The notes below the pieces were generated by a model, which searched no databases, was not told the DNA's origin, and worked only from the letters and a program-made list of their open reading frames with translations. A DNA stretch of 32,534 bases. It comes from Chitinophagaceae bacterium. GTDB lineage: Bacteria; Bacteroidota; Bacteroidia; Chitinophagales; Chitinophagaceae. Positions 1 to 30,547 of this stretch are shown piece after piece. The DNA lies in the NCBI GenBank assembly GCA_947381435.1, contig CANCVE010000044.1, positions 1 through 32,534 on the forward strand. Direction: 5' to 3'. Made by a program: the position numbers and the translations under genes. Every line of letters starts with the position of its first letter. Position 1 is the stretch's first letter.

Positions 1-969
1 GGAATTGCACCGTGGTTGGCACTTGAAGGAGGATCGGCAGAGGAGGTAAAACTGAGAAATCAGTACAGAGAATGGGCAATAAAGGCTACCGAAAATGCTG
101 TTAATCCGAAAGCAAAAGACTATGTAGAATGGAGTAAAGGAGGGCAGCCGCTAGTGGATGCTTCCTACTTAGCAATTTCTTTTTTGCGTTGCCCTTGGTT
201 ATGGGAGCATTTAAACGACACCACAAAACAGCAAGTAATAGAGGGATTTAAGCAAACTAGAAAAGTAACCCCTCCATTTCAGAATTGGATATTATTTACA
301 GGAATGATTGAAGCCTTTTTTTGTAATTACCACCTTGACTGGGATGGTGTGAGGGTAGAATATGGGCTGAGACAATTTAGCCAATGGTATGTGGGTGACG
401 GGGTATATTCTGATGGACCCGAGTATCAGTGGGACTATTACAATAGCTATGTGATGCACCCATATCTGTGTAAAATATTGGAGATTGTGGGCAAGAAAAC
501 GCATCGTTATGACAGTTTGAAAGTTGAGGAAAAAGCAAGATCAGAACGCTACGCAATAATACAAGAGCGATTGATTGCACCGGATGGCTCCTACCCTGCT
601 ACAGGAAGATCGATAGTATATAGAGGGGCAGCTTTTCATCATTTAGCAGATTTGGCTGCTAGACAGAAGTTGCCAAAAGAGCTAAAACCTGCTCAGGTTC
701 GGTGTGCATTGACAGCGGTAATAAAGAAAACAATGGAATGCCCGAATACCTTTAACAAAGAAGGGTGGCTAAACATAGGTTTATGTGGTTTGCAGCCTGA
801 CCTAGCAGACATTTATAATAATACAGGTAGTCTTTACATCTGCTCGAATGTTTTTCTTCCATTGGGTTTACCAGAAACGGATGAGTTCTGGGCAGCTCCA
901 CCTGAAAAGTTTACCTCACAAAAGATTTGGAGTGGCGAAGATGTAAGGGGTGACCATGGGATTCATTGA
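1..969 (+). CDS. DUF2264 domain-containing protein, 5' end missing
   Basis: The reading frame is open from base 1, so the gene begins outside the window and only about the last 322 residues are present; the first Met-like codon (TTG at 16) is not a true start. The sequence has hallmarks of the DUF2264 family: an early PWLALEGGSAEE stretch, GPEYQWDYYNSYVMHP in the middle, GRSIVYRGAAFHHLADLA, and a C-terminal GWLNIGLCG...GSLYICSNVFLPLGLP segment followed by EFWAAPPE and SGEDVRGDH. The family is thought to adopt an alpha-toroid fold and is common in Bacteroidota carbohydrate loci; no reaction is established that I can cite. A GH51 enzyme lies 4 kb downstream, which fits a carbohydrate context. 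The stop codon TGA (967-969) is embedded in the first unit of a heptad repeat array. Confidence 0.88.
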   Translation, partial: GIAPWLALEGGSAEEVKLRNQYREWAIKATENAVNPKAKDYVEWSKGGQPLVDASYLAISFLRCPWLWEHLNDTTKQQVIEGFKQTRKVTPPFQNWILFTGMIEAFFCNYHLDWDGVRVEYGLRQFSQWYVGDGVYSDGPEYQWDYYNSYVMHPYLCKILEIVGKKTHRYDSLKVEEKARSERYAIIQERLIAPDGSYPATGRSIVYRGAAFHHLADLAARQKLPKELKPAQVRCALTAVIKKTMECPNTFNKEGWLNIGLCGLQPDLADIYNNTGSLYICSNVFLPLGLPETDEFWAAPPEKFTSQKIWSGEDVRGDHGIH

Positions 970-1051
970 GTGATGAGATATGAGTTATGAGTTATGAGTT
1001 GTTAGAAATCAGTTATTAGTGTGCAGTAGTAACCTGAAACTACTATATTGC
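968..1051. repeat. Heptad repeat array A (3' end of DUF2264 gene)
   Basis: Nine consecutive 7-bp units run from 968 to 1030, for example gagtgat, gagatat, gagttat, gagttat, gagttgt, then more degenerate units ending in cagtagt. The first unit overlaps the TGA stop of the upstream gene. The last unit (cagtagt) can pair with actacta at about 1040-1046 to form a small hairpin. There is no long opposite arm here, unlike the other arrays. It lies in the 101-nt gap before the thioredoxin gene. Confidence 0.75.
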
Positions 1052-1070
1052 ATCTATTAAAAGATAAAAT

Positions 1071-1556
1071 ATGACAAAGAATATAATATTGATAGCAACG
1101 TTTTTCTTGGTAACTAATGTTGCTTTTAGCCAACCCATCAAAAAGGTAAAGATTGCCGATGTGTTGCGAATGGCAGATACTTCATCAGTTCCTATTGTTA
1201 TGAATTTCTTTGCCACATGGTGCAAACCTTGTGTGCAAGAGTTGCCTTGGTTTGAGAAGACTGTCCCCAATTATAAAGGTAAAGAGGTAAAATTATTGTT
1301 GGTGAGCCTTGATTATGCGGAGGACTACCCTAAAAACTTAGCTTCATTTGCCAGAAAGAATAACATTGCCTCACAAATAGTATGGCTTGATGAATCGGAT
1401 CCTAATTCTTTCTGTCCTAAAATTGATAAACGTTGGGAAGGCACTATACCCGTAAGCTTGATGATTAATAAAGCCACCAACTTCCGTGCATTCTTCGACC
1501 ATCAGTTGCCAGAAGGCCAATTAAAGCTCGCTTTAGATAAGTTGATTGGTTTGTAG
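1071..1556 (+). CDS. Secreted thioredoxin-like (TlpA/ResA family) protein
   Basis: A 161-residue protein with an N-terminal signal peptide (about residues 1-20, hydrophobic core IILIATFFLVTNVAF, ending in SQP) and a single thioredoxin fold. The redox motif is ATWCKPC with the cysteines at 51 and 54, and the cis-proline loop is GTIPVSL at about 124-130. This is the layout of TlpA/ResA-type periplasmic thiol-disulfide oxidoreductases, which reduce or oxidise cysteines of exported proteins. It lacks the long N-terminal domain of many Bacteroidota DUF4369 fusions. The start at 1071 is the only Met that keeps the signal peptide. The specific client is unknown; neighbouring genes do not indicate cytochrome maturation. 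Confidence 0.9.
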   Translation: MTKNIILIATFFLVTNVAFSQPIKKVKIADVLRMADTSSVPIVMNFFATWCKPCVQELPWFEKTVPNYKGKEVKLLLVSLDYAEDYPKNLASFARKNNIASQIVWLDESDPNSFCPKIDKRWEGTIPVSLMINKATNFRAFFDHQLPEGQLKLALDKLIGL

Positions 1557-1687
1557 TTGAAATATTGCGTATTCAAAGAAGTGGCTACCAAACATCCATT
1601 ATTAATTCCATAATTCAAATATCCTAACCTTCAAACAACTATTTACCCTACTTTTAGCGATGTTTCATTCACTAAAAAACACTGTTT

Positions 1688-3832
1688 ATGTCAATCTTTT
1701 CTAAAATACCCCTAGTATTGTCTATGGCTGCCCTACTATCTTTTTCCAATGGCGATCCAAAACCTGGTACTACCAAAAGTATATTGCCTGCTACTAATCC
1801 GTTTAGTAAAATAAGTAAACTACCTTTTGGCGTGCCCGATTTCAGTAAAATAAAAGATGCTGATTATCAGCCTGCACTAGAAGAAGGTATCAAGCAGCAG
1901 CTGGAAGAGATTAAACACATTGCCGATAACATAGCTCCACCCACTTTTGTAAATACATTGGTGGCTTTAGAAAAAAGCGGACAATTGCTTGCTCGTGTGA
2001 ACAATGCTTTCAATTTAGTTTCTGGGGCAAACACAAACCCTGTATTGCAACAATTGCAAGAGGATATTGCCCCAAAACTAACTGCACTTAATGATGCTAT
2101 TTATTTGAATGGAAATCTATTTAAACGCGTTGAAAAATTGTATAACAATAAATCAAAACTTGCTTTAGATAAAGAATCTGCGAGATTGTTGGATTATTAC
2201 TATCAACAATTTATAAAAGCTGGAGCTAAGCTTTCAGATGATGATAAAACAACATTAAAGAAACTAAACGAAGAAGAAGCATCATTGGGAGCCAAGTTTG
2301 GTAATCAATTATTAGCTGCTGCAAAAGAGGGTGGCGTTGTTATAAGCGATTCATCTGAATTAGCTGGATTATCTCAAGCTCAAAAAGATAATTATGCACA
2401 AGGAGCTAAGGCTAAAAACTTAGTAGGCAAATGGTTAATTCCTTTAAAAAATACTACACAACAACCACCATTATCATCATTATCTGTACGATCTACCAGA
2501 CAAAAGCTTTTTGAAGCATCATGGTCTAGAGCAGAAAGAGGAGACTCTAACGACACACGCCCTACTATTCTTAGAATAGCAACCATACGTGCACAAAAAG
2601 CAAAGTTGTTGGGCTTTAAAAGCTACGCAGCTTGGAACTTGCAAGATCAAATGGCTCAAAACCCAGAAGCAGTAGAACAATTCTTTGCCAAGTTAGTACC
2701 ATCGGCTATTGGCAAAGCCAAAGAGGAAGCAGCTGATATACAAGCCTTAATAAACAAACAAAAAGGCGGTTTTGAAGTACAGCCTTGGGATTGGGATTAT
2801 TATGCAGAACAAGTAAGAAAAGAGAAATACAACCTAGATGAAAGCGAGATAACACCCTACTTTCAATTAGATAAAGTATTGGAAAAAGGTATCTTCTATG
2901 CGGCCAATCAATTGTATGGAATTACTTTTAAAGAACGCCATGACATTCCCGTTTACCAATCCGATGTGCGCGTATTTGAAGTGTTTGATAAGGACGGAAC
3001 TTCCTTTGCTTTGTTTTACTGCGACTATTACAAAAGAGACAATAAAAACGGAGGCGCTTGGATGAGTAACCTCATGGGGCAATCTACTTTACTGAATAGC
3101 AAGCCAGTTATTTATAACATCTGCAACTTTACTAAACCTGCTAAAGGCGAACCAGCGTTAATAAGTTTTGATGATGTTACTACTATGTTCCATGAGTTTG
3201 GACATGGTTTGCATGGTTTGTTTGCTAGTCAGAAATACCCAACTTTATCAGGAACAAGTGTGGCTAGAGATTATGTAGAGTTCCCTTCACAATTTAACGA
3301 GCACTGGGCTTTGGATTCTAAAGTATTGAAACATTATGCTGTTCATTACAAAACAGGAGCAACCATTCCGCAATCATTGGTTGATAAAATAAAGAAAGCG
3401 AATTCATTTAATAAAGGCTATAGTCAAACAGAGATATTGGCCGCAGCTTCACTCGATTTAAAGTGGCATAACTTATCTGCAACAGATGAAGTAAAGGATG
3501 CTGATTTATTTGAAAAGAATGCATTGCAAAGTTTAGGATTCACATTCGATGCTGTTCCATCACGTTACCGTTCTAGTTATTTTTTACATATATGGGGCAA
3601 TGGTTATGCGGCAGGATACTATGCTTACGAATGGACAAAGATGTTAGAGGAGGATGCTTATTCTTGGTTTGAAGAGCATGGTGGACTAACAAGAGAAAAT
3701 GGACAACGGTTTAGAGATTTAATACTTTCTAAAGGAAATACGGAAGATTATAATACTATGTTTAAAGCCTTCCGCGGGCATAGGCCAGATCTTAAACCAA
3801 TGGAAAGGGATTTAGGTTTGCCTGTGAAGTAA
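1688..3832 (+). CDS. dcp: M3 family metallopeptidase (peptidyl-dipeptidase Dcp-like)
   Basis: 714 residues, the usual length for M3A peptidases of the Dcp/oligopeptidase A type. The zinc site is visible as FHEFGHGLHG with ligands His502 and His506 and catalytic Glu503; the third ligand is probably Glu531 in YVEFPSQFNEHW. The C-terminal substrate-binding segment FLHIWGNGYAAGYYAYEW (about 633-650) is typical of the family. The N-terminus (IPLVLSMAALLSFSNG) looks like a signal peptide, so the enzyme probably acts in the periplasm, trimming dipeptides from the C-terminus of oligopeptides, as for secreted Bacteroidota homologues. A short heptad run follows the stop codon. Dcp is favoured over oligopeptidase A by export and overall similarity, but the two cannot be separated with certainty by eye. 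Confidence 0.92.
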   Translation: MSIFSKIPLVLSMAALLSFSNGDPKPGTTKSILPATNPFSKISKLPFGVPDFSKIKDADYQPALEEGIKQQLEEIKHIADNIAPPTFVNTLVALEKSGQLLARVNNAFNLVSGANTNPVLQQLQEDIAPKLTALNDAIYLNGNLFKRVEKLYNNKSKLALDKESARLLDYYYQQFIKAGAKLSDDDKTTLKKLNEEEASLGAKFGNQLLAAAKEGGVVISDSSELAGLSQAQKDNYAQGAKAKNLVGKWLIPLKNTTQQPPLSSLSVRSTRQKLFEASWSRAERGDSNDTRPTILRIATIRAQKAKLLGFKSYAAWNLQDQMAQNPEAVEQFFAKLVPSAIGKAKEEAADIQALINKQKGGFEVQPWDWDYYAEQVRKEKYNLDESEITPYFQLDKVLEKGIFYAANQLYGITFKERHDIPVYQSDVRVFEVFDKDGTSFALFYCDYYKRDNKNGGAWMSNLMGQSTLLNSKPVIYNICNFTKPAKGEPALISFDDVTTMFHEFGHGLHGLFASQKYPTLSGTSVARDYVEFPSQFNEHWALDSKVLKHYAVHYKTGATIPQSLVDKIKKANSFNKGYSQTEILAAASLDLKWHNLSATDEVKDADLFEKNALQSLGFTFDAVPSRYRSSYFLHIWGNGYAAGYYAYEWTKMLEEDAYSWFEEHGGLTRENGQRFRDLILSKGNTEDYNTMFKAFRGHRPDLKPMERDLGLPVK

Positions 3833-3833
3833 A

Positions 3834-3961
3834 CGAAAGCCGGAAGTCGAGAGTTGAAAGTAGATTAATACCAATTTACTTAATAAAAGTCTTATTAATA
3901 GCCGTTCAATAAGTGGTCGTATGAGTTATTGCTTTTATCAACTCCGAGTCTACATGCTTTT
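3834..3961. repeat. Degenerate heptad element B behind the M3 peptidase gene
   Basis: Four 7-bp units follow the stop codon: cgaaagc, cggaagt, cgagagt, tgaaagt (3834-3861). A degenerate opposite arm with recognisable complementarity (tcaactccgagtc, then atgcttt) lies at about 3932-3961. The pairing is weak, so the second arm is tentative; the first four units are clear. Confidence 0.5.
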
Positions 3962-4048
3962 GAATGATATTGTCCATGAATTCCTGTAAATCCTCAAGTG
4001 ACTTGTCCTAAAATAGGTTTACACTTTAAAAAATTAAAAAGGTGTAAA

Positions 4049-4737
4049 ATGGACAAGAAATCTTATTTATTAAGAAATTATCATGGACTTGAATTAAAAC
4101 TTCCCGCTTTTGCCTTTAAAACAAAGCAAGGTATGAAGAACAACCCAACCACGTTTATCCCTGCAAATATTCCAGTTGGAGATGCCGCATTTGCCACCTT
4201 GATAAAAAATGATGAGGAAGCGTATGCTAATTGGAGAGCAGGTGTCAGCCAGAATTACTTCTTTTTGTTACAGCAAGACAATTGCTTTTGGCAGCATTAG
4301 ATGAAAATGCCGACTATGTAGATTTAATAGCCGATAGCGAAGCAGCTATCATAAAATTGAGCGGCTTTTCTGCCTCATCAGTTACGGACTTTAAATAAGT
4401 TATACCCGTACAAATAAAAACAATCACTATTTCTACCGGAGGTACTTTATTGACTGGAAGAATGAACGTAGAATGTGAAAAAATAGATGGCGCATCAGCT
4501 TAAGGTTGCATAGTTTGCGAAGGCGGACCACTGCCCGATGGTTATATATTAAATTTACAAGGGCAATTAATTGCCCCAATAGGTAGCTTACTAAGGGTAT
4601 TTAACGATGTTAACCTTCAGCGTAAAAAATATTTATGGAATTTAATAAAAGGAACAGGCTATTACTTTTACTACTATGCCATCAACGCAATTGGCGTAGG
4701 TCCATTGAGTGAATATAAAATGAGAATGTGCAACTAA
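4049..4737 (+). pseudogene. Decayed fibronectin-type-III-like gene
   Basis: Starting from ATG 4049 (MDKKSYLLRN...), the frame runs to a stop at 4298-4300. The protein-like sequence continues in another frame from about 4261 (ARQLLLAALDENADYVDLIA...), implying a loss of one base (or gain of two) near the T-rich stretch at 4255-4267. The second frame then contains in-frame TAA codons at 4396-4398 and 4501-4503 and ends at a TAA at 4735-4737. The last part (YYFYYYAINAIGVGPLSEY) resembles the end of a fibronectin type III domain, as in short proteins that are common in Chitinophagaceae genomes. With one frameshift and two internal stops it is probably inactive. The frameshift alone could be a sequencing error; the two stops make real decay more likely. 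Confidence 0.75.
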
Positions 4738-4740
4738 TCT

Positions 4741-4901
4741 AGTTATGAGTTATGAGATATGAATTGAAATCAAAAGTTGATAGTTTGTATTATAAAGAGA
4801 GGGGTTTGAAAAGAATTATCTTTTTGACTCCTTCTCTTTTTGACTTTCGACTCTCCGCTTTTGACTTTCGACTCATATCTCATAATTCATATCTCATAAC
4901 T
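4741..4901. repeat. Heptad hairpin C, 23 units in register
   Basis: The interval is 161 nt, or 23 x 7, and can be cut into 7-mers throughout. The first units are agttatg, agttatg, agatatg; the last are catatct, cataatt, catatct, cataact. The first and last units are exact reverse complements, and the outer four units on each side pair with one or two mismatches per unit. An inner set on the right (tttgact, ttcgact, ctccgct, tttgact, ttcgact) pairs imperfectly with A-rich units on the left. The element begins 4 nt after the last pseudogene stop and ends 73 nt before the GH51 start. The sequence is open in one frame by chance but does not look coding. Confidence 0.85.
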
Positions 4902-4914
4902 AAGCAACTTTCCT

Positions 4915-4922
4915 TATGTTTG
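4915..4922 (+). promoter_or_regulatory. Candidate -7 box for the GH51 gene
   Basis: TATGTTTG matches the Bacteroidota -7 form TAnnTTTG exactly and lies 52 nt upstream of the chosen ATG. No good TTTG -33 box is present at the expected 17-23 nt distance; that position is occupied by the end of heptad element C. A tentative call. Confidence 0.35.
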
Positions 4923-4974
4923 TCCTTTATTTGTCACATTAACACTTATCATTAACTTGCCTTCAAATTATTGT

Positions 4975-6507
4975 ATGAAAAAAGCAATCTTGGGTTCACT
5001 CCTATTAGCTTCTGTATGCTTATCAAATGCACAGAATACGGCTATTTTAAAAATTGATTCAGCCAAGCAGGTAATCAACAAACACATTTATGGTCATTTT
5101 GCCGAACATTTGGGCAGGTGTATTTATGACGGATTTTATGTAGGCGATACCAGTAAGATACAAAATACAGCCGGCGTTAGAAATGACATTATTGATGCAC
5201 TCAAAAAACTAAAGATCCCTAACCTACGCTGGCCAGGGGGTTGCTTTGCAGATACTTACCACTGGAAAGATGGCATTGGCGATAAAGCCAAACGCCCATC
5301 AATAGTAAATACTAACTGGGGCGATGTAACCGAAGACAATAGCTTTGGCACACACGACTTCTTGAATATGTGTAAACTATTGGGTTGCGAACCATATCTA
5401 TCTGGTAATGTAGGTAGCGGAACAGTGCAAGAATTGGCAGACTGGGTGCAGTATACCAACTTCGATAATGTATGCCCAATGAGCCAATTGCGCAAACAAA
5501 ACGGGCAACAACAAGCTTGGGGAGTTCGTTATTGGGGCATTGGCAACGAGGCATGGGGTTGTGGCGGTCACATGACACCTGAACATTATTCAGATTTATA
5601 TAGGCAGTATGCTACGTTTATGAATAATTCTCCCAAAGCTTCCCTATTTAAAATAGCTTCTGGCGCAAGCGATAATGACTATAACTGGACAGAGGTATTG
5701 ATGAAGAATATTCCTAAGGGGATGCTTGGCGGCGTGGCAATGCACCACTATTCTGTAATAGAATGGAAGAAAAAAGGATCTGCTACCAACTTTACAGAAG
5801 CACAATACTTCACCACCATGAAATCTGCGTGGCTAATGGACGAATTAGTAACTAAGCACAGTGCCATTATGGACAAGTACGATCCTGCTAAGAAAGTAGC
5901 ATTGGTTGTGGACGAGTGGGGCGGATGGTATGACGGTGAGCCAGGCTCTAATCCACATTTCTTATACCAACAAAACACTATGCGTGATGCCTTGATAGCC
6001 GGCATGACCCTAAACATATTTAATAACCACGCAGAAAGAGTGAGGTTAGCAAACCTTGCACAATGTGTAAACGTATTGCAAGCGGTGATATTGACCAATA
6101 AGGAAAAAATGATTCTTACGCCTACTTACCATGTAATGCAACTGTATAGCGTACACCAAAATGCCACAATGATTCCATTGGACATTAAGAGTAACAATTA
6201 TCAATATGGTGCTGAGACTTTACCAGCGGTATCCGGTTCGGCATCTAAAGATTCAACAGGGGCAATACATATCAGTTTAACAAACATTGATACTAAAGTG
6301 TCGCAGGAAATAGCAATTGATTTAGGAGGAAAGGTTTTCAGCAAATCTTCTGCACAGATAATAACATCCGGCAAGTTGCAGGATTATAACTCATTCGAAA
6401 CTCCAGATAAGATTAAACCTACACCTTTTACTGCTTTTTCTATTAAACAAGGTAGTCTTATAGTTAAGTTACCTCCGTTTTCTGTAGTAGTATTAGAAAT
6501 TAAATAG
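4975..6507 (+). CDS. Secreted alpha-L-arabinofuranosidase, GH51
   Basis: 510 residues from ATG 4975. This start is preferred to the upstream in-frame ATG (4957) because it places a normal signal peptide (MKKAILGSLLLASVCLSNAQ) at the N-terminus. The TIM-barrel part follows the GH51 pattern: NKHIYGHFAEHLGRCIYDG near the N-terminus, NLRWPGGCFADTYHW, the acid/base Glu192 in WGIGNEAWGCGG and the nucleophile Glu314 in VVDEWGGWYDG. A beta-sandwich C-terminal domain ends in LPPFSVVVLEI. The enzyme releases terminal arabinofuranosyl groups from arabinan or arabinoxylan, here probably in the periplasm or outside the cell. It is a single gene between heptad elements C and D. Confidence 0.93.
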   Translation: MKKAILGSLLLASVCLSNAQNTAILKIDSAKQVINKHIYGHFAEHLGRCIYDGFYVGDTSKIQNTAGVRNDIIDALKKLKIPNLRWPGGCFADTYHWKDGIGDKAKRPSIVNTNWGDVTEDNSFGTHDFLNMCKLLGCEPYLSGNVGSGTVQELADWVQYTNFDNVCPMSQLRKQNGQQQAWGVRYWGIGNEAWGCGGHMTPEHYSDLYRQYATFMNNSPKASLFKIASGASDNDYNWTEVLMKNIPKGMLGGVAMHHYSVIEWKKKGSATNFTEAQYFTTMKSAWLMDELVTKHSAIMDKYDPAKKVALVVDEWGGWYDGEPGSNPHFLYQQNTMRDALIAGMTLNIFNNHAERVRLANLAQCVNVLQAVILTNKEKMILTPTYHVMQLYSVHQNATMIPLDIKSNNYQYGAETLPAVSGSASKDSTGAIHISLTNIDTKVSQEIAIDLGGKVFSKSSAQIITSGKLQDYNSFETPDKIKPTPFTAFSIKQGSLIVKLPPFSVVVLEIK

Positions 6508-6575
6508 ATAGTAGAAATGAGATAGATATTAATTGCTAATTCCTCCTCTATATCTACTATCTCATATCTACTAAC
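6506..6575. repeat. Heptad hairpin D between GH51 and rpoD
   Basis: Ten 7-bp units fill 70 nt: agatagt, agaaatg, agataga on the left, ctatatc, tactatc, tcatatc, tactaac on the right, with a short centre. The arms pair with one to three mismatches per unit. The first unit overlaps the TAG stop codon of the GH51 gene (6505-6507). The element sits between convergent genes and directly precedes a separate strong terminator. Confidence 0.8.
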
Positions 6576-6581
6576 TAAATT

Positions 6582-6618
6582 AAAAATCCCTTGAAATATA
6601 TACTTCAAGGGATTTTTT
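6582..6618. terminator. Bidirectional terminator between GH51 and rpoD
   Basis: A perfect 14-bp stem, AAAAATCCCTTGAA (6582-6595) with TTCAAGGGATTTTT (6604-6617), and an 8-nt loop. The A and T tracts at the two ends allow intrinsic termination from both directions, which suits the convergent flanking genes. Confidence 0.88.
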
Positions 6619-6651
6619 AATACCCAACCATTAATAACTAACAACTAGTTA

Positions 6652-7509
6652 CTATCCTAAGTATGCTTTTAATGCATTGCTATAACGTGCTTTTTGTAAA
6701 CGCTTGATGGCACGTTCTTTAATTTGGCGAATACGTTCCTTAGTAAGATCGTATTTAGAACCAATTTGTTCGATGGTAACACCAGCTTCACCATCTAATC
6801 CAAAATAAGCATTTACTATTTCAGCTTCTCTAGGGCTCAATGATTTCAATACACGGCGAATTTCATCCCTCAAAGAGTCTTTCATAACATCTTCATCGGT
6901 ATCATCGTTTCCTTGTAGCAAATCCCCCATAGCTACGTCTTCTGCCTCGTGCACAGGTGCATCTAGTGAAGTGTGACGGGTGTTACTTTGGAAGATGTTG
7001 TTGATTTCAGTTTCGCTCATTTCCAAAATGTCACTCAACTCTTCGGTAGAAGGTTCACGCTCATGTTCTTGTTCAAAAGCCATGTAGGCTTTGTTAGCTT
7101 TGTTGTAAGTGCCAATTTTGTTTTGTGGCAAGCGGACTAATCTGCCCTGCTCTGCCAACGCCTGTAGTATAGATTGGCGAATCCACCACACAGCGTAAGA
7201 AATAAATTTGAAACCTTTAGTTTCATCAAAGCGTTGAGCCGCTTTAATCAATCCGAGGTTACCCTCGTTAATAAGATCGCTAAGAGAAAGCCCTTGGTGT
7301 TGGTACTGCTTAGCAACAGATACCACAAATCTTAAATTGGCCTGAACCAACTTGTCTAAGGCTCTTTGATTACCCATTTTGATTTTCTGCGCCAGCGTTG
7401 TTTCCTCTTCGGGAGTGATCATCGGAATTTTAGAAATTTCCTGCAGATACTTTTCTACGGCCTGTGAATCTCTGTTGGTAATCTGTGTTGCAATTTTGAG
7501 CTGCCTCAT
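6652..7509 (-). CDS. rpoD: RNA polymerase primary sigma factor RpoD/SigA
   Basis: 285 residues, the short primary sigma factor typical of Bacteroidota, without the long acidic N-terminal domain of proteobacterial RpoD. Region 1.2 is seen as DSQAVEKYLQEISKIPMITPEEE; region 2 as LRFVVSVAKQYQHQGLSLSDLINEGNLG and RFDETKGFKFISYAVWWIRQSI; region 3 as IGTYNKANKAYMAFEQEHEREPS; and region 4 as a helix-turn-helix in VTIEQIGSKYDLTKERIRQIKERAI near the C-terminus. It recruits core RNA polymerase to the TTTG/TAnnTTTG promoters of this phylum. The ATG at 7509 gives the normal MRQLKI N-terminus. The gene stands alone, convergent with the GH51 gene. Confidence 0.97.
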   Translation of the reverse strand: MRQLKIATQITNRDSQAVEKYLQEISKIPMITPEEETTLAQKIKMGNQRALDKLVQANLRFVVSVAKQYQHQGLSLSDLINEGNLGLIKAAQRFDETKGFKFISYAVWWIRQSILQALAEQGRLVRLPQNKIGTYNKANKAYMAFEQEHEREPSTEELSDILEMSETEINNIFQSNTRHTSLDAPVHEAEDVAMGDLLQGNDDTDEDVMKDSLRDEIRRVLKSLSPREAEIVNAYFGLDGEAGVTIEQIGSKYDLTKERIRQIKERAIKRLQKARYSNALKAYLG

Positions 7510-13956: not shown

Positions 13957-14835
13957 ATGATACTATTAGATGGCAAAGTAGCTTCCGCAGCTGTAAAAGA
14001 AACTATCAAAAAGGAAACCGCGGTGTTACTTGAAACCAATAAAAGAGCTCCACACTTGGTGGCAATATTGGTTGGTAACAATGGCGCTAGTGAAACTTAT
14101 GTAGCTAGTAAGGTAAAAAACTGCGAGGAAGTGGGTTTCAAGTCAACGCTTGTTCGCTTTGATTATTTCATTGATGAAAAGATTCTACTAGAGAATATAA
14201 TAGAATTAAATAATGATTCATCAGTTGATGGCATTTTGGTTCAACTCCCTTTGCCGAAACATATAAGTGAGGCCAAAGTAATACAAACCATCGCCCCTAC
14301 TAAAGATGTAGACGGGTTCCACCCAATTAATGCAGGAAAGCTTGTTCAGGGGCTTCCTTCATTTATTCCAGCTACACCTTATGGTATCATGTTAATGTTT
14401 GAACACTATAATTTACAGACCAAAGGAAAACATGCTGTAGTAATTGGACGTAGTAACATTGTTGGAAGACCAATGAGTATATTACTAAGTAGCAATCTAC
14501 CTTTTGGAAACTGCACAGTTACAATTTGCAATTCTCACACCTCAAACCTTAAGGAAATTTGTTTGCAGGGCGACATTATTGTTGCGGCGCTCGGAAAGCC
14601 AGGTTTTGTAAAAGCAGAAATGGTAAAGGATGGTGCTGTAATTATTGATGTTGGCATTACTAGGGTTGCAGATGAAACTGCAAAAAAAGGATTCAGAATA
14701 AAAGGCGATGTATCGTTTGATGAAGTTTCAACAAAAGCGTCTGCTATAACTCCAGTGCCAGGAGGAGTAGGATTGATGACTATTGCAGGATTATTGAAAA
14801 ACACTTTGCAAGCGTACAAGAACAGTAATCAGTAA
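13957..14835 (+). CDS. folD: Bifunctional methylene-THF dehydrogenase / cyclohydrolase FolD
   Basis: 292 residues, normal length. It interconverts 5,10-methylene-, methenyl- and 10-formyl-tetrahydrofolate, feeding purine and formyl-methionine synthesis. Family signatures are clear: SETYVASKVKNCEEVGF (with the catalytic Lys in YVxxKxK), DGILVQLPLPKHI, PTKDVDGFHPINAGKL, the nucleotide-binding GRSNIVGRPMSILL and the C-terminal PVPGGVGLMTIAGLL. The last four codons (Asn-Ser-Asn-Gln) and the stop lie at or inside the start of heptad element E, so the very C-terminus may be repeat-derived. It converges with queE and purD; the purine link to purD is functional but they are not one operon. Confidence 0.97.
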   Translation: MILLDGKVASAAVKETIKKETAVLLETNKRAPHLVAILVGNNGASETYVASKVKNCEEVGFKSTLVRFDYFIDEKILLENIIELNNDSSVDGILVQLPLPKHISEAKVIQTIAPTKDVDGFHPINAGKLVQGLPSFIPATPYGIMLMFEHYNLQTKGKHAVVIGRSNIVGRPMSILLSSNLPFGNCTVTICNSHTSNLKEICLQGDIIVAALGKPGFVKAEMVKDGAVIIDVGITRVADETAKKGFRIKGDVSFDEVSTKASAITPVPGGVGLMTIAGLLKNTLQAYKNSNQ

Positions 14836-14955
14836 TCAGTAAGCAGTTATCTGTTATCTGTTATCAGTAAATATTTATCAGAAATTGGATATTAATTAGT
14901 AGTAGTACACCGTACTTCTACTAATTAATTACTGTTTACTGCTCACTGATAACTG
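14823..14955. repeat. Heptad hairpin E between folD and queE
   Basis: Exactly 19 units (133 nt) in register: cagtaat, cagtaat, cagtaag, cagttat, ctgttat, ctgttat on the left, and attactg, tttactg, ctcactg, ataactg on the right. The centre is a strong hairpin, ATTAATTAGTAGTAGTAC with TACTTCTACTAATTAAT (about 14891-14929). The array starts inside the last codons of folD, includes its TAA, and ends at 14955, the base next to the queE stop codon (14956-14958). It fills the whole gap between the two convergent genes and could act as a bidirectional terminator or transcript-end structure. Confidence 0.85.
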
Positions 14956-15630
14956 TCAAGGTACATTAATATATTTATGCAGCTGTAAACTCAATTCCCA
15001 CTTGGGATTTGACTTAATGTACTCAATTATTAACGGAGTTACAGTAGCGGCTTTGTCCCATTCGGGTTGAAAGTAAAGTTTACATGTTTCAGAAACTTGT
15101 TCCGCATACGTTTCAGCCCATTCAAAGTCATGCTTGTTAAATATTACTACTTTAAGTTCATTAGCAAAAGGAATAACCTCTGGCAAAGGTGCTTTGAATT
15201 TTTTGGGCGATAGACAAACCCAATCCCATGTTCCACTCAAAGGAGAAGAGCCAGATGTTTCAATATTTGTTCTAAACCCACTTGCTTTAAGAGCTCTAGT
15301 TAATTCATCCAGATTATGCATCAACGGCTCACCGCCAGTAACGACGGCAATTATATTGTGATTTACCGATGACAGTTTATCGTTGATAGCAATCGGTTGA
15401 CGGTTGACAGTTAACTGTAAACTATCCATTGCTTGAGTTAGTATCTGCTCGGCTGTAAACTGCGGATGAAGAGATGCATCCCAACTATCTTTTACATCGC
15501 ACCAAACACACCCTACATCACATCCACCCAACCTGATAAAATAGGCAGCACTACCCTGATAGTAGCCCTCACCCTGAATGGTGTAAAAGCTTTCCATTAC
15601 TGGAAGTGTATTTTTATCCTTATTTATCAT
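14956..15630 (-). CDS. queE: 7-carboxy-7-deazaguanine synthase QueE
   Basis: 224 residues. QueE is a radical-SAM enzyme that converts 6-carboxy-tetrahydropterin to 7-carboxy-7-deazaguanine, the precursor of queuosine and other 7-deazapurines. The iron-sulfur motif is GGCDVGCVWC with Cys37, Cys41 and Cys44, the CX3CX2C spacing expected here. MESFYTIQGEGYYQGSAAYFIRLGG at the N-terminus and VVTGGEPLMHNLDEL (about 96-110) are also diagnostic. Residues about 70-91 (LQLTVNRQPI... to ...LSSVNHN) are unlike what I expect between the AEQIL helix and the TGGEP strand and are encoded by a heptad repeat (see separate entry). The gene follows purD on the same strand with a heptad element between them, so they may be co-transcribed. 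queC/queD/queF are not in the window. Confidence 0.93.
   Translation of the reverse strand: MINKDKNTLPVMESFYTIQGEGYYQGSAAYFIRLGGCDVGCVWCDVKDSWDASLHPQFTAEQILTQAMDSLQLTVNRQPIAINDKLSSVNHNIIAVVTGGEPLMHNLDELTRALKASGFRTNIETSGSSPLSGTWDWVCLSPKKFKAPLPEVIPFANELKVVIFNKHDFEWAETYAEQVSETCKLYFQPEWDKAATVTPLIIEYIKSNPKWELSLQLHKYINVP
15363..15425. repeat. Heptad run H inside queE
   Basis: Inside the queE coding region the plus strand reads ttaccga, tgacagt, ttatcgt, tgatagc, aatcggt, tgacggt, tgacagt, taactgt, aaactat: nine 7-mers, 63 nt. The recurrent tgacagt/tgacggt units and the palindrome ACAGTTAACTGT (15407-15418) resemble the intergenic heptad elements. Because 63 is divisible by 3 the run adds 21 codons without a frameshift. 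Exact edges are uncertain by about one unit. Confidence 0.65.
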
Positions 15631-15646: not shown

Positions 15647-15730
15647 GAGGGAAGAAGGGAATAGGAAAAGAGGCAATGAAAAAGAAACTATTTAAACTAT
15701 ATCCTCTTTTCTTATCCCCTCGTTGCCTAT
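15647..15730. repeat. Heptad hairpin G between purD and queE
   Basis: Twelve units (84 nt) in register: gagggaa, gaaggga, ataggaa, aagaggc on the left, cctcttt, tcttatc, ccctcgt, tgcctat on the right. The arms pair imperfectly. The array ends at 15730 and the purD stop codon begins at 15731 (minus strand), so it follows purD directly and precedes queE by 16 nt. Confidence 0.75.
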
Positions 15731-17017
15731 CTACTTAAACTCATATCCAATATCCTTTCTGTAATTAATACCCTCAAAATAAATATTCTTTAATATCCCA
15801 ATTGATTGCTCTACCGCTCCCTCAATAGAGTTCCCTTTGCTTGTAACGGCTAATACTCTTCCACCATTGGTTAAAACAGTATCCCCATCTTGTTTGGTAC
15901 CCGCCTGAAACAATAATGAACTATTTGGTATCAGTTGGTCAAGTCCTGTAATTGGTATATTCTTTCTAAAGTCTCCGGGGTAGCCTCCACTTACTGCAAC
16001 AACTGTAGCAAAGTGTCCATCTGCATAATTTATATTAGCATCCGCCAATGTGCCATTATCCATTGCAGCAAAAAGACTGAGCAAGTCTGTTTCCAAGCGA
16101 GGCATTACTACTTCAGTTTCAGGATCTCCCATACGACAATTATATTCTATCACCTGAGGGGCACCATCTACATTCATTAATCCAAAAAAGATAAATCCAT
16201 TATAGATAAGTCCTTCTTTTGATAAACCATTTATAGTTGGAATAATAATATTTTGCTCTACTTTCTGCATAAAAGCACTATCCATAAAAGGAACAGGCGT
16301 TACACATCCCATGCCTCCAGTATTCAGCCCCGAATCCCCTTCGCCAATCCTTTTATAATCCTTCGCATGACCAATAATAGAATAATCAACACCATTCGTC
16401 AACACAAAAACACTTACTTCTATGCCTTTCAAAAACTCTTCTACAACTACTTTGCTGCTTGCCTTTCCAAACTGTTGATTAATAATCATGTCTTCAAAAA
16501 CCTGCAATGCTTCAGCGTGTGTTTCGCTTATTACAACTCCTTTGCCAGCAGCTAAACCATCCGCTTTTAAAACAATAGGCAAACTGTGCTTACCAATGTA
16601 TGCCTTTCCTTCCTCAAAATTATCTCTTGTAAATTCTGCATAACCAGCTGTAGGAATACCATTTCGCTGCATAAATTTCTTCGAAAAAGCTTTACTTCCT
16701 TCCAATTGTGCGGCTTCCTTAGATGGACCAACAACAAAACCTTTCCAACCATTTTCTTTTTTGGCGCGCTCCATAAAATCATAGATTCCATTCACTAACG
16801 GATCTTCTGGTCCAACAACTAATGTATCAATTTTATTATACAGGCAAAATGACTTTATCGCTTCAAAATCATTCACCCCTATATCAACATTAGTAGCAAT
16901 TATTGCAATTCCAGGATTCCCTGGTGCAACATATAATTTATCGCAATGATGACTTTGGGCAATTTTCCAAGCTAGTGCATGTTCCCTTCCACCGCTGCCA
17001 AGTATTAATACATTCAT
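15731..17017 (-). CDS. purD: Phosphoribosylamine--glycine ligase PurD
   Basis: 428 residues, normal for GARS. It joins glycine to phosphoribosylamine with ATP, the second step of de novo purine synthesis. The N-terminal domain starts MNVLILGSGGREHALAWKIAQS and has PGNPGIA; the ATP-grasp part shows EGSKAFSKKFMQRNGIPTAGY, VLKADGLAAGKGVVI, VVEEFLKGIEVSVFVLTNG, and EYNCRMGDPETEVVMPRL, where metal ligands lie. The C-terminal domain has VVAVSGGYPGDFRKN and LTNGGRVLAVTSKG. It has no purine-gene neighbours on its own strand except possibly queE downstream. No frameshift or missing key residue was seen. Confidence 0.97.
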   Translation of the reverse strand: MNVLILGSGGREHALAWKIAQSHHCDKLYVAPGNPGIAIIATNVDIGVNDFEAIKSFCLYNKIDTLVVGPEDPLVNGIYDFMERAKKENGWKGFVVGPSKEAAQLEGSKAFSKKFMQRNGIPTAGYAEFTRDNFEEGKAYIGKHSLPIVLKADGLAAGKGVVISETHAEALQVFEDMIINQQFGKASSKVVVEEFLKGIEVSVFVLTNGVDYSIIGHAKDYKRIGEGDSGLNTGGMGCVTPVPFMDSAFMQKVEQNIIIPTINGLSKEGLIYNGFIFFGLMNVDGAPQVIEYNCRMGDPETEVVMPRLETDLLSLFAAMDNGTLADANINYADGHFATVVAVSGGYPGDFRKNIPITGLDQLIPNSSLLFQAGTKQDGDTVLTNGGRVLAVTSKGNSIEGAVEQSIGILKNIYFEGINYRKDIGYEFK

Positions 17018-24918: not shown

Positions 24919-25066
24919 AAGATGAATGCTAACTCATTAAAGTAATGAAACTACAGTTCCTCACAAATATGTGATATAATCTTATTCTCCCTATTTGTAC
25001 TTTCTTAGAAAGATATTTAACTACAATTATCCTCCAACCTCCCCCTCTTCCCCCCTCAATCATACA

Positions 25067-25084
25067 CCCTCCCGCCCCCTTCCC
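25067..25084 (-). promoter_or_regulatory. G-quadruplex-type tract
   Basis: On the minus strand the sequence reads GGG, AA, GGGGG, C, GGG, A, GGG, which fits the canonical G3+N1-7 rule four times. A second G-rich block (G6 and G5 runs) lies at about 25037-25056. The plus strand of 25030-25085 is nearly all C and T with runs of four to six C, in a genome that is otherwise AT-rich. It lies 150 nt before the lipoprotein start in the direction of transcription. Confidence 0.5.
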
Positions 25085-25104
25085 ACTCCAAAATCCCACT
25101 TATT

Positions 25105-25315
25105 GCCAATATTGGCATACATATTTGATCAATTATATGCCCCGTTAAGTCTAACGGCATACTTATCTGATCAATTATATGCCTCGTTAAGTCTAACTGC
25201 ACACTTATTTGGTCAATTATATACCCCGTTAAGTCTAACTGCACACTTATTTGATCAATTATATGCCCCGTTAGACTTAACGGCGCATATAATTGGTGCC
25301 TTATTTGGATGTCAA
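25105..25315. repeat. 42-bp tandem array with terminal hairpin
   Basis: Direct units of exactly 42 bp start at 25126, 25168 and 25210; a fourth, modified unit starts at 25252. Each begins TGATCAATTATATGCC and contains the hairpin CCGTTA-AGTC-TAACGG or a variant. The fourth unit carries the loop in reverse orientation (GACT) and becomes a near-perfect hairpin of two 18-nt arms (25256-25273 and 25278-25295) with one C-C mismatch. Upstream is a 12-bp palindrome, GCCAATATTGGC (25105-25116), and degenerate flanking copies. Because 42 is divisible by 3 the array is open on both strands, giving repetitive but probably spurious ORFs. Confidence 0.88.
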
Positions 25316-25316
25316 T

Positions 25317-25336
25317 GAAAAAAGGGTCTCCTTTTA
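25317..25336 (-). terminator. Short terminator of the TonB receptor gene
   Basis: On the minus strand AAAAGG-AGAC-CCTTTTTT: a 6-bp stem and T run, directly after the receptor stop codon. Short but well placed. Confidence 0.5.
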
Positions 25337-25340
25337 GCCA

Positions 25341-27803: not shown

Positions 27804-27920
27804 TGTATAAATTTAAGAGTAGGCAATTGCAACAGTAATAGTGCAATAGCAATCAGAAATTTGGAAGTAAGTGAGAATTAATCAATCAATTACAAGGAAA
27901 AGAATTCCTTTAATTATGAA

Positions 27921-28250
27921 TTATGCGGTGGCAGGCGGTCCCCGCAAATGTGTGGAATATGTGGGGGATGTATAAATACTATTGTATCTATACGATGCAA
28001 TAGTAAGGATATAAGTAATGTTTGGCAGAGGCAATGAAGATTCTTCTACCTGTGCTAATGGAATAAAGAAATCATCTAAGCAGCCACAATCCTGTTGAGA
28101 GATGAACTTGCCATTTAATTTGCTTTTAGAGTTTGAAACACTGGTTGTAGTTTTGTGATAATGGGTATGGAAGAATAAACGCAACCTCACCTTCTCTATA
28201 AATAGAAAAAGAAGTAAGACCGCTATTATTTTTCTTGCCGTACCACGCAT
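27921..28250 (-). CDS. Small membrane or exported His/Cys protein upstream of the receptor
   Basis: 109 residues with an N-terminal hydrophobic segment (about 8-18, IIAVLLLFLFI), a His cluster FFHTHYH (His28, 30, 32), and DCGCLDDFF (Cys55, Cys57). The C-terminus is Tyr/Ser-rich and ends LRGPPATA. This arrangement of a short His- and Cys-containing protein directly before a TonB-dependent receptor recurs in Bacteroidota and is reminiscent of metal-responsive small proteins. I know no experimentally defined function. It shares its direction with the receptor and has its own promoter immediately upstream. It could be a periplasmic metal buffer or sensor; this is inference. Confidence 0.72.
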   Translation of the reverse strand: MRGTARKIIAVLLLFLFIEKVRLRLFFHTHYHKTTTSVSNSKSKLNGKFISQQDCGCLDDFFIPLAQVEESSLPLPNITYILTIASYRYNSIYTSPTYSTHLRGPPATA

Positions 28251-28269
28251 ATTGCTTTAGGGATTGCCG

Positions 28270-28299
28270 CAAATATAATAATTGCAACTTTGTTACAAA
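28270..28299 (-). promoter_or_regulatory. Promoter with internal inverted repeat, His/Cys gene and receptor
   Basis: Minus strand: -33 TTTG (plus CAAA 28296-28299), 18-nt spacer, -7 TATATTTG (plus CAAATATA 28270-28277), both exact for the Bacteroidota consensus and at a suitable distance. The -7 box is 20 nt from the ATG at 28250. Across the spacer and the -33 box lies the inverted repeat TTGCAAC-TTT-GTTACAA (28282-28298, one mismatch per arm), an apt position for a repressor. Confidence 0.6.
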
Positions 28300-28371
28300 T
28301 GTATGTCTTGCTTGAGTGGCTTCTCTCCACCGATTGTTTGCAATAGTCCATCTATCTCATTACATTTACGC

Positions 28372-29271
28372 ATGATTTCTACGCGTCATGAAGTATTCTT
28401 TCAGGTAGCCACAGAGAAGAGTTTCTCTAAGGCGGCACTAACTTTATTTATATCGCAACCTGCCATCAGTAAGCATATAAAGGCATTGGAACAAGAATAT
28501 AAAACCAAATTATTTGAACGAAAGGGATTGCATATAGAACTGACCGAAGCAGGAAGTTTACTCTACGAAAAACTATTGGAGGTAAAGAATATTCAAGAGC
28601 AAACCATTCATGACTTATCCATTTTAACCAATGCCTTACAGGCCGAAGGCAAGTTGAAACTAGGGGCAAGTACTACGGTGGCACTATATATATTGCCCAA
28701 AGTATTATCCATGTTTCATAAGCGCCATCCTAATATAGATATTACTTTATTGAACAGAAACACTGAAACGGTTTTAGAAGCACTCATCAACAAAGAGATT
28801 AACCTTGGCATTGTGGAAGGGCATAGCAAGTTATCTAATGTGGATTATACTCCATTTATAACCGATAGAGTAATTGCTGTGTGCAGTAGGAATAGCCCGA
28901 TTGCCCAAAAGAAAAAGTATAAGATTACAGATATTGTTAATCTTCCAATTGCCCTAAGGGAAAGAGGGAGTGGTACATTGGCTGCACTGAAAATAATGTT
29001 AGAAGAACAAGGAATAAAAGAAAACAACCTACTGGTTAAAGTGAAACTTGGTGGCACAGAAGCGTTGAAGAATTTTATTATTGAATCGGATTGCTTAGGT
29101 TTTCTTCCACAACGCTCTGTGATCAAAGAGATAAAATATGGAGATTTGGTAGAAGTTTATTTTGAAGGATTGAAGATAGAACGAAGCTTTTATTTTATTC
29201 AAAGGCAAGGCGAAACGAGTAATCTTAATAAAGAGTTTATTAAAAAAGCAAAGACAATCTATAATTTATAG
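28372..29271 (+). CDS. LysR-family transcriptional regulator
   Basis: 299 residues from ATG 28372. The frame is open from 28282, but the upstream part reads through the divergent promoter and is Cys/Ser-rich; MISTRHEVFFQVATEKSFSKAA is the normal LysR start. The winged helix-turn-helix spans about 5-60 (SFSKAALTLFISQPAISKHIKALEQEYKTKLFERKG). The effector domain begins near LKLGASTTVALYILPKVLSMFHKRHPNIDI (about 89-118). The overall pattern is like the CysL/CbbR group. It could control the divergent receptor operon or the threonine synthase gene downstream; the effector cannot be predicted. Confidence 0.92.
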   Translation: MISTRHEVFFQVATEKSFSKAALTLFISQPAISKHIKALEQEYKTKLFERKGLHIELTEAGSLLYEKLLEVKNIQEQTIHDLSILTNALQAEGKLKLGASTTVALYILPKVLSMFHKRHPNIDITLLNRNTETVLEALINKEINLGIVEGHSKLSNVDYTPFITDRVIAVCSRNSPIAQKKKYKITDIVNLPIALRERGSGTLAALKIMLEEQGIKENNLLVKVKLGGTEALKNFIIESDCLGFLPQRSVIKEIKYGDLVEVYFEGLKIERSFYFIQRQGETSNLNKEFIKKAKTIYNL

Positions 29272-29330
29272 TTATAGTCCATAAATAAAAAGACGCATTT
29301 AGGTTATCTAACGGGCTGTACATTTACTGC

Positions 29331-30491
29331 ATGGAACAGGTGCATTTAACACATTCTAGGGCAACTTCTTTATACTGTCCTTCTTGCAAAAAAGAGTATA
29401 ACATTCATTCAATACAAAACTTTGCTACTTGCTGCAACCAACCTTTAGTAACTAATTACAACATAAAAAACGTTTCTAAAAGCATTATCGATATTACAGA
29501 TTCATCTATGTGGAGATATGCGCAATTGTTGCCATTATTCAATAAAGACAATCTTGTTTCCTTACAAGAAGGCGGAACGCCAAACTTTCTTCTTTCAAAA
29601 GCTGCTTCTACGCTAAATATTCATAAAATATATCTTAAAGATGAAGGCGTTAATCCTACTGGTTCATTTAAGGCTAGGGGCATTAGTGTAGCAGTATCTA
29701 AAGCAAAAGAATTAGGCGTAACACACATAGTAATACCAACGGCTGGTAATGCTGGTGGTGCATTGAGTGCTTATGCCGCCAAGGCAGACGTTAAAGCAAC
29801 GGTAATCATGCCGCGACATACTAGCGAAACCTTAAAAGAAGAATGTATGTTGTATGGTGCAGAATTGATATTGCTTGATGGATTAATAGACGCTTGTGGC
29901 AAAAAGGCTGCTCAACTAAAAGAAGAAAAAGGATACTTTGATATGAGCACCCTGAAAGAACCGTACAGGCTGGAAGGAAAGAAAACCCTTGGCTACGAAA
30001 TAGCCGAACAACTTAACTGGAAATTACCCGATGTAATAATTTATCCCACCGGCGGTGGCACAGGTCTGATAGGCATGTGGAAAGCCTTTAAGGAAATGAA
30101 AGAAATGGGATGGATAAGCGGAAAACTACCCCGTATGGTAGTAGTACAAACAGAAAATTGTAACCCAATGATACAAACATTAAACAATGGCTTTATACCA
30201 GAAATGTATTTAGCCACACAGACAAAAGCATTAGGATTGGCAGTGCCAAAACCCTTTGCAACAGACTTAATTATTGATGCGGTACGTGCTAGCAACGGCA
30301 TTGGCATCAGCGTTTCGGAAGAAGAAATGGAACGCGGCATAGAAGATATAGCCGGATCGGAAGGGATATTACTTTCTCCAGAAAGCAGTGCCACTTATGT
30401 AGGACTAAAGAAACTGATCGAAAAGGATTGGATTCATGAAGACGAAACCGTTCTTTTGTTCAATACGGGGTCTTGGTATAAGTATAGATAA
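29331..30491 (+). CDS. thrC: Threonine synthase (PLP enzyme with N-terminal zinc ribbon)
   Basis: 386 residues. The N-terminus has CPSCKKEY (Cys16, Cys19) and ATCCNQPL (Cys34, Cys35), a reduced form of the zinc ribbon seen in many thrC-type proteins. The PLP-binding Lys lies in LKDEGVNPTGSFKARG, the substrate loop in PTAGNAGGALSAYAAK, and the phosphate-binding loop in YPTGGGTGLIGMW. EGILLSPESSATYVGL and VLLFNTGSWYKY complete the family pattern. The reaction is O-phosphohomoserine to threonine. The gene follows the LysR gene by 59 nt on the same strand. A related PLP lyase of the same fold is possible, because the homoserine pathway genes are not here. Confidence 0.88.
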   Translation: MEQVHLTHSRATSLYCPSCKKEYNIHSIQNFATCCNQPLVTNYNIKNVSKSIIDITDSSMWRYAQLLPLFNKDNLVSLQEGGTPNFLLSKAASTLNIHKIYLKDEGVNPTGSFKARGISVAVSKAKELGVTHIVIPTAGNAGGALSAYAAKADVKATVIMPRHTSETLKEECMLYGAELILLDGLIDACGKKAAQLKEEKGYFDMSTLKEPYRLEGKKTLGYEIAEQLNWKLPDVIIYPTGGGTGLIGMWKAFKEMKEMGWISGKLPRMVVVQTENCNPMIQTLNNGFIPEMYLATQTKALGLAVPKPFATDLIIDAVRASNGIGISVSEEEMERGIEDIAGSEGILLSPESSATYVGLKKLIEKDWIHEDETVLLFNTGSWYKYR

Positions 30492-30498
30492 GATATTT

Positions 30499-30547
30499 AG
30501 TTATGAATTATGAGATAGTTATATCTCATAATTCAAATCTCATAACT
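30499..30547. repeat. Heptad hairpin F between thrC and the TPR gene
   Basis: Seven units in register: agttatg, aattatg, agatagt, tatatct, cataatt, caaatct, cataact. The terminal units are exact reverse complements and the core ATGAGATA/TATCTCAT (8 bp) with flanking AATT on both sides makes a strong hairpin. If the unit gatattt (30492-30498) is counted, the array starts at the base after the thrC stop. Unit sequences are close to those of element C, 26 kb away. The genes are convergent. Confidence 0.82.

Follow-up and report, generated by a model that had tools for sequence, protein, structure and literature searches.

In the available part of PMC3733652, repetitive extragenic palindromic (REP) sequences are placed between convergent or co-directional genes, those between convergent genes lying mostly less than 20 bp from the 3' ends, and their termini supply TAG stop codons; the same text describes Rickettsia palindromic elements as palindromes inserted inside genes. 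Atypical secondary structures that flank Bacteroidetes TnpA-Y1 genes of subclass 2.6 and have copies elsewhere in the genome are reported in the accessible portion of PMC6006769. The sections of PMC4679880 consulted describe TAACTGA heptamer repeats in Beggiatoaceae, cyanobacteria, and five Bacteroidetes, with other heptamers mixed in; these are direct repeats with one favoured sequence; in the main genome, most of them closely precede a start codon, and a single inverted repeat is noted. Here, we compare these systems with the arrays and hairpins of seven-base units (heptads) found in a 32,534-nt stretch of Chitinophagaceae DNA (Bacteroidota), which is contig 44 (CANCVE010000044.1) of a 4.88-Mb draft genome and is called the window below. 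The closest named matches to its folD-like protein come from Chitinophagaceae metagenome-assembled genomes, in agreement with this placement. We consider it about an even chance (a probability of roughly 0.5) that these heptad elements are REP-like palindromes that follow stop codons and are made of shuffled heptads.

This reading builds on features observed directly, namely the period, the fold, the AGT-first polarity of the arms, their abutment on stop codons, their scarcity between divergent genes, the sharing of words between arms and between loci, and the recurrence of the format in sister species. Unless another scope is given, statistics were obtained from the window and 40 other stretches of the same genome (825 kb; own gene calls, with 581 genes and 467 intergenic regions). 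Regions with at least 16 of 21 matches at lag 7 were counted, and dinucleotide shuffling served as the control. Lag-7 regions were detected in 79 cases in intergenic DNA versus 1.4 after shuffling, whereas the other lags from 3 to 13 gave only 0 to 5 intergenic regions each; lags 14, 21, and 42 were also high (60, 76, and 65 regions), the signal at lags 21 and 42 belonging partly to a separate class of 21/22-bp minisatellites. The autocorrelation check against shuffles and other lags that a preliminary description of the window had proposed thus came out in favour of a specific period, and the heptad observation is real and wider than the window makes visible, although it was only partly confirmed element by element. 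The same-genus genome G006 contained 49 lag-7 regions compared to 0.6 in shuffled sequence, with a small excess at lag 8 (6 versus 0.2); G013 showed little lag-7 signal, and the lag spectrum of G034, a relative from the same order, was spoiled by runs of N.

Most of the seven-base units consist of AGT and four further letters, and the elements carrying them (AGT elements) were mainly intergenic (62 of 70). Outside divergent regions, 49 of 59 AGT elements lay no more than 10 nt from a stop codon, while positions drawn at random within the same gaps gave a mean of 20.2 and a maximum of 26 in 200 draws. The same distance was kept by 14 of the 21 AGT elements with at least 150 nt of room, compared to 0.9 for random placement. 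Elements detected by lag 7 alone were near a stop codon in 42 of 62 cases (23.8 at random) and, with at least 150 nt of room, in 6 of 16 (0.8 at random); in G006, 19 of 25 elements were stop-proximal (10.2 at random). The density of AGT elements per 10 kb was 9.9 in convergent, 5.6 in co-directional, and 0.8 in divergent regions, these values being somewhat inflated because six of the stretches (L022 to L027) were picked for holding AGTTATGAGTTATG and because the window is where the elements were first noticed. In some short co-directional gaps, ACT arms approach a start codon.

The preference for AGT was assessed without circularity in lag-7 arrays found without AGT, using those located no more than 15 nt from a stop codon (48 of 83) and reading them in the sense direction. 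The preliminary description was correct that the heptamer differs between elements, but the difference is bounded: the consensus heptamer contained AGT in 37 of these 48 arrays (approximately 6 expected) and ACT in none. The corresponding counts in G006 were 19 and 1 of 28. Across the whole genome, the pattern (AGTNNNN)3AGT had 1,050 matches, overlaps counted, versus 90 for the pattern read backward. Word classes include AGT[T/G][A/G]TT, AGT[A/G/T]A[A/G/T]C, AGT[C/T][G/A].., and A[G/A][T/A]TATG, and word families are reused at many loci; AGTTATGAGTTATG alone has 31 matches at approximately 24 loci. Genomes have heptad dialects: AGTGAAC, common in the genome of the window, was absent from the 52 G006 arrays listed, where AGT.[G/A]TA words are frequent instead. 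Descent of the elements from one ancestor was rejected, since word order is hardly kept between loci (agreement versus permuted order, 0.536/0.529 for word class A, 0.642/0.630 for C, 0.678/0.651 for G, and 0.680/0.651 for T), and the elements do not reduce to copies of one consensus, an outcome that the preliminary description had named as fatal to its proposal. In a sample of the phylum, (AGTNNNN)4AGT was present in 245 of 395 genomes, in some of which the reversed controls were high as well. In G012, G329, G216, and G338, the reversed control (TGANNNN)n outnumbered the AGT pattern by about 2 to 500 times, and other heptad alphabets probably dominate there.

As a separate candidate function, we considered stop-codon cassettes, in which a 7-nt unit (7 = 1 mod 3) would provide stops in all frames. 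This idea was not supported, as stop triplets in the 5' arms stood at the shuffled level (0.810 per 7 nt versus 0.820, standard deviation [SD] 0.022, with letters shuffled and AGT kept); G006 gave 0.974 versus 0.919 (SD 0.033) for shuffled letters and 0.994 with columns permuted.

The arms have a fixed polarity, with AGT on the 5' arm and ACT on the 3' arm. Among 28 pairs of consecutive arrays separated by less than 200 nt, 24 were AGT-first and none was reversed (three were '--' and one was '++'), and the 14 pairs of G006 comprised 11 AGT-first, none reversed, two '--', and one '++'. The genome of the window contained 153 AGT-first and 0 ACT-first hairpin matches. Across Bacteroidota, the AGT-first hairpin pattern was found in 44 of 148 genomes and the ACT-first pattern in 5 of 148, hit numbers in these phylum scans including nested sub-matches; one of the five, G173 (41 hits), has the self-complementary unit TAACTAG, and the others had 1 to 3 hits.

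At the four variable letters, the two arms of an element agreed at a level of 0.675, compared to 0.657 (SD 0.013) with unit order permuted (n = 23) and 0.432 between elements; the values for G006 were 0.786 and 0.743 (SD 0.021, n = 11). The earlier claim that the opposite arm holds the complements is therefore right for the words but hardly so unit by unit. Shuffling the letters of one arm with AGT kept cost the fold 3.2 SD, whereas permuting its units cost 0.5 SD (n = 23); in G006, the respective costs were 4.1 SD and 0.5 SD (standard error [SE] 0.29). The stem thus draws on words common to both arms, and a change in the order of its units does it little harm.

The elements of the window and the features beside them are given below. 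For each element, the best 21-base window at lag 7 was scored against 500 dinucleotide shuffles (z), and the RNA fold was scored separately; element starts are those of the preliminary description, and the ends of A, B, and D were set in this analysis. Names such as folD-, queE-, purD-, and rpoD-like (or sigma-70-like) are labels given by reading the sequences alone. ORF denotes an open reading frame.

968-1031, plus strand: element A, a heptad array with a single 5' arm (AGTGATG AGATATG AGTTATG AGTTATG ...) that starts inside the stop codon of ORF 16-969, no hairpin; lag 7 20/21, z 7.0; fold z -0.67.
3834-3903, plus strand: element B, a short array (AGTCGAG AGTTGAA AGTAGAT at 3845-3865) 12 nt past the stop codon of ORF 1688-3832, no significant hairpin; lag 7 15/21, z 3.4; fold z -0.22.
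4741-4901, no strand assigned: element C, a composite hairpin with outer arms of AGTTATG/AGATATG/AATTATG units and inner AGTCGAA/AGTCAAA units; lag 7 16/21, z 4.1; fold z -11.4, the strongest of the seven.
6506-6577, no strand assigned: element D, a hairpin of AGATAGT-type units at the stop codon of ORF 4957-6507; lag 7 15/21, z 3.1; fold z -4.5.
6582-6617, no strand assigned: a terminator-like hairpin and T run, between D and the rpoD-side arm.
6633-6653, minus strand: a single heptad arm (AGTAACT AGTTGTT AGTTATT) at the stop codon of the sigma-70-like gene 6652-7509.
14823-14955, no strand assigned: element E, a hairpin of AGTAATC/AGTTATC/AGTAAGC/AGTAAAC/AGTGAGC units; lag 7 18/21, z 5.6; fold z -7.2.
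15390-15435, no strand assigned: a heptad-type palindrome of GTTGACG/GTTGACA units inside the queE-like coding region 14956-15630.
15647-15730, no strand assigned: element G, a purine/pyrimidine hairpin ending at the stop codon of ORF 15731-17017, with a period nearer 8 than 7; lag 7 11/21, z 1.4; lag 8 15/21, z 3.7; lag 14 z 3.1; fold z -4.3.
30499-30547, no strand assigned: element F, a 49-nt hairpin of AGTTATG/AATTATG/AGATATG units that separates two convergent ORFs, whose ends are at 30491 and 30554; lag 7 13/21, z 2.6 (modest); fold z -6.0.

The preliminary description had listed all seven lettered elements as hairpins with a 7-bp register, which is accurate for C, D, E, and F; A and B have the heptads but form no hairpin, whereas G forms a hairpin but has a period nearer 8. 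The 84-nt length of G, cited there as a multiple of 7, carries no weight because G is without a clear heptad register. Element E fills the gap between the convergent folD-like (13957-14835) and queE-like (14956-15630) genes, and the folD-side stop codon lies inside the array. Element C breaks the placement rule, being without a called gene end alongside. Its outer and inner parts use different families, and another composite element (L025, 15944-16155) also mixes two families. The stretch around the palindrome at 15390-15435 varies in length, in frame, among 13 aligned genomes. No Rfam family matched the window at gathering scores.

The format recurs at the same site in other letters. At the folD-like stop codon, inspection by eye showed AGTAATC-type arrays in G000, AATTATG/AGTTATG-type in G003, AGTTATG-type in G002, and AGTGGTT-type in G005, with the same convergent neighbour and still a hairpin in G003; no array was seen right at this stop codon in G001, G006, G010, G007, G008, or G011. 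In 80 folD-like 3' flanks, lag 7 was detected in 3 and the other lags from 4 to 14 in 0 to 2, and the site is rarely occupied outside the genus. At the site of element G, G005 carries (GAGGAAAA)n. The gene L035:2707-3747 was accompanied by an array in all seven species compared, with one family in G000, G003, and G005, another in G001, G002, and G006, and a third in G010. Close relatives inherit an element, as 116 of 129 aligned letters agree between G000 and G003 over a stop codon, the element, and the start of the next gene. Letters were compared at 15 loci where at least two species had an array in the first 75 nt (lenient array threshold), and 11 of 92 species pairs were more alike than 99% of unrelated element pairs. 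The distance between consensus heptamers was dropped as a measure of turnover because it scored clearly orthologous elements as different, and direct alignment was used instead. The unusual point is that the format is found again at a site, and not the speed at which the letters change. The proposal that period and fold are conserved and sequence is not stands for the period, which is specific, and for the recurring format, but the fold is missing in A and B. Elsewhere in L035, just after position 2587, and at the same site in G003, we noted a post-stop hairpin-like sequence of the CGGAAGCAATCGTTAG type without an obvious heptad register; the other species are without it.

In the preferred reading, REP-like palindromes of shuffled heptads, each arm is a run of seven-base words kept in register, most of them AGT followed by four further letters; if a second arm exists, it uses the same words on the other strand. 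With words shared in this way, almost any arm could therefore pair with its partner in any 7-nt register, and the letters could drift or be replaced while the format stays because the fold needs a shared vocabulary rather than a fixed sequence. The words may have spread between loci within the genome by recombination or a mobilising activity, and the runs may gain, lose, and reorder heptads. Immediately 3' of a stop codon, a stem or array may be kept or tolerated through a role in the mRNA; by analogy with REP sequences, it might protect the 3' end or influence the ribosome as it terminates. Work on E. coli by Liang, Rudd and Deutscher in 2015 is said to have dealt with REP sequences near stop codons and ribosome stalling.

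Several observations weigh against this reading. None of the 8 lag-7 arrays of G034 was stop-proximal (a small sample), which limits the demonstration of stop anchoring to this genus, and many elements are single-armed, such as A, B, and the rpoD-side arm. AGT is not universal: in the same-genus genome G012, hits of the reversed control numbered 1241 versus 513 for AGT, and AATTGAT-type arrays lack AGT altogether. Backward-read hairpin patterns matched 11 and 23 listed genomes in two scans; hairpins of other alphabets therefore exist, and these patterns are not neutral controls. A weak link in unit order between the arms remains (mean z -0.53, SE 0.19). Element-free orthologous flanks exceeded the similarity mark in 12 of 143 pairs, compared to 11 of 92 with arrays; letters therefore turn over at an ordinary intergenic pace, which may suffice to explain their change. 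The pairwise odds ratio of 4.6 for elements occurring together at a site is biased upward, as it comes mostly from two stretches that hold elements and the stretches compared were mostly selected for having them. Intergenic divergence between the compared species is too high to show a clean empty site or target-site duplication. A link to Y1 transposases did not emerge, as only 1 heptad array was found in 17.6 kb around seven Y1 genes, where approximately 2 were expected from the background density of 0.112 per kb (the flanks being short). Heptad arrays are thus not enriched at the Y1 loci, and REP sequences driven by Y1 or the REP-associated tyrosine transposase (RAYT) were rejected as an explanation.

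An alternative that we regard as possible but rather unlikely is local generation, in which 7-nt replication slippage and snap-back template switching would make each element in place and selection would keep or tolerate it after stop codons. The exact 7-nt register (79 regions versus 1.4) agrees with it, as do the 7-nt indels that prevail between two Cyanothece strains according to the part of PMC4679880 available. At the purD-like stop codon, G006 and G010 differ by 20 nt, approximately three heptads, with 113 of 116 other letters matching (largely coding DNA), but the extra units are several different words and not copies of one. Growth mainly in 7-nt steps, as suggested earlier, is not supported by the inner gaps, of which 3 of 59 were exactly 7 nt (16 pair alignments at 5 sites, which overlap and include flanks), this purD-like difference notwithstanding. 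Unit order in the two arms agrees little better than permuted order, which speaks against a fresh inverted copy as the origin and hence against template switching from the first arm into the second. Word families recurring at many loci, with AGTTATGAGTTATG at approximately 24 of them, and the element inherited between G000 and G003 are at odds with purely local generation. The earlier preference for a generating mechanism over copies of one ancestor was therefore borne out as to the missing single consensus but not as to origin in place, given that words are reused at many loci. An enzyme writing 7-nt steps primed on AGT, in the manner of a telomerase or by microhomology-primed synthesis, would account for the constant AGT, the restricted words at fixed columns, the nearly free word order, and the AGT-first polarity. 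However, a search restricted to Y1 found no such enzyme, and the genome dialects are equally explained by the spread of existing words, and we consider this enzyme highly improbable.

Selection for RNA structure alone, in which any post-stop stem would be useful and the heptads would be a by-product of the survival of low-complexity stems, is improbable in our estimation. It is in line with the stop-codon anchoring, the scarcity in divergent regions, and the recurrence at the same site in other letters, but it predicts neither period 7 nor AGT nor the AGT-first polarity, given that an ACT-first stem should fold much alike, and single-arm arrays exist. That the elements are intrinsic transcription terminators of the upstream genes appears very unlikely to us, although the hairpins do stand at gene 3' ends and are densest between convergent genes. 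At the rpoD-like site, the only one so inspected by eye, the heptad arm lies between the stop codon and a separate terminator-like hairpin downstream (6582-6617) that stands in species with and without the arm; the arm is therefore probably not the terminator of that gene, and the terminator reading is disfavoured there. We also doubt, though less strongly, a more general proposal in which the elements form a repeat class defined by a grammar (7-base pitch, AGT plus four free letters, AGT first, seated at stop codons) with swappable species vocabularies in many Bacteroidota and an enzyme working in 7-nt steps.

Other repeats were observed in the same DNA. Minisatellites of 21/22 bp, with a unit changing by locus, are located at 31678-31868 of the window, L012 8725-8879, L028 93-363, and L045 16693-16999, the last repeating a unit close to the 22-mer of the window. 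Of 34 minisatellites in the sample, 13 are in called genes, 11 in co-directional, 6 in divergent, and 2 in convergent gaps, and 2 at edges; the intergenic ones listed are at least 21 nt from both neighbouring genes. They were rejected as members of the heptad class for their placement away from stop codons and often in genes or divergent gaps. A palindromic repeat family (CAATTATATGCCCCGTTAA...) has several copies, including 25130-25295 of the window and L147 28-171 beside a Y1 transposase gene; a link to a transposase is more plausible for this family than for the heptads. The stretch 3866-4060 of the window has repeated matches of 83-95% in five of the six same-genus genomes searched and looks like part of a mobile repeat; an adjoining ORF of 100 amino acids (3998-4300) has no Pfam match. 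A separate palindrome (AATTGTCTGAATCAGGAT...ATCCTGATTCAAACAATT) at 32308-32382 is 82% complementary over 28 nt.

Repeat finders use sequence similarity, so they can readily overlook a class in which period, polarity, place, and fold outlast the letters, or report it as several simple repeats with no connection to each other. The rules that AGT stands in the sense direction after the stop codon and on the first arm are cheap to test in any genome. They raise two questions, namely which activity operates immediately 3' of stop codons in these bacteria and how seven-base words are made. Should the stems influence the ends of mRNAs or ribosomes at termination, the genes affected in this genome could number a few hundred, as extrapolated from 70 elements in 825 kb.

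Among the known systems, the cyanobacterial heptanucleotide short tandemly repeated repetitive (STRR) sequences are intergenic tandem heptamers, and the heptad arrays resemble them in both respects, with tandem period 7 present in the elements except G. We know of no hairpin pairing or stop-codon polarity for STRR sequences, and a literature search turned up no description of STRR hairpins. The open-access literature searched (subscription papers lay outside its scope) likewise held no description of inverted heptad arms at stop codons or heptad hairpins in Bacteroidota, nor did the part of PMC9723704 available contain anything on such hairpins. The statement that no such class has been described in this phylum is to be qualified, because heptamer repeats in five Bacteroidetes were already reported in the sections of PMC4679880 consulted. 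The heptad elements share period 7 with these TAACTGA repeats, and TAACTGA read on the other strand is of the AGTTATC type, a word of element E; unlike the direct repeats just upstream of start codons portrayed there, they are paired inverted arms of many words anchored to stop codons. With the subclass 2.6 structures, as far as PMC6006769 was accessible, they have in common the occurrence in Bacteroidetes and the dispersed copies, whereas those structures are defined by the flanking transposase and heptads were present at only one of seven Y1 loci. The palindrome at 15390-15435 is inside a gene, as are the Rickettsia palindromic elements in the available text of PMC3733652, whereas most heptad elements are outside genes (62 of 70). 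REP sequences have conserved sequence families and a tag, whereas the heptad elements have no sequence in common beyond AGT and their arms are runs of heptads; at 46 hairpin feet, the REP tag was near background (GTAG 3, GGAG 2, CGTC 1, and GACG 0, with 1.5, 0.8, 0.5, and 0.5 expected). As to the palindromic stem, C, D, E, F, and G fold far better than shuffled sequences, A and B do not, and many arrays are one-armed. In their position, the heptad elements are like the REP sequences and REP doublets forming hairpins (REPINs) of the portion of PMC3733652 seen: they are intergenic, stand beside ORF 3' ends, are rare between divergent genes, and in some cases have the stop codon within the array.

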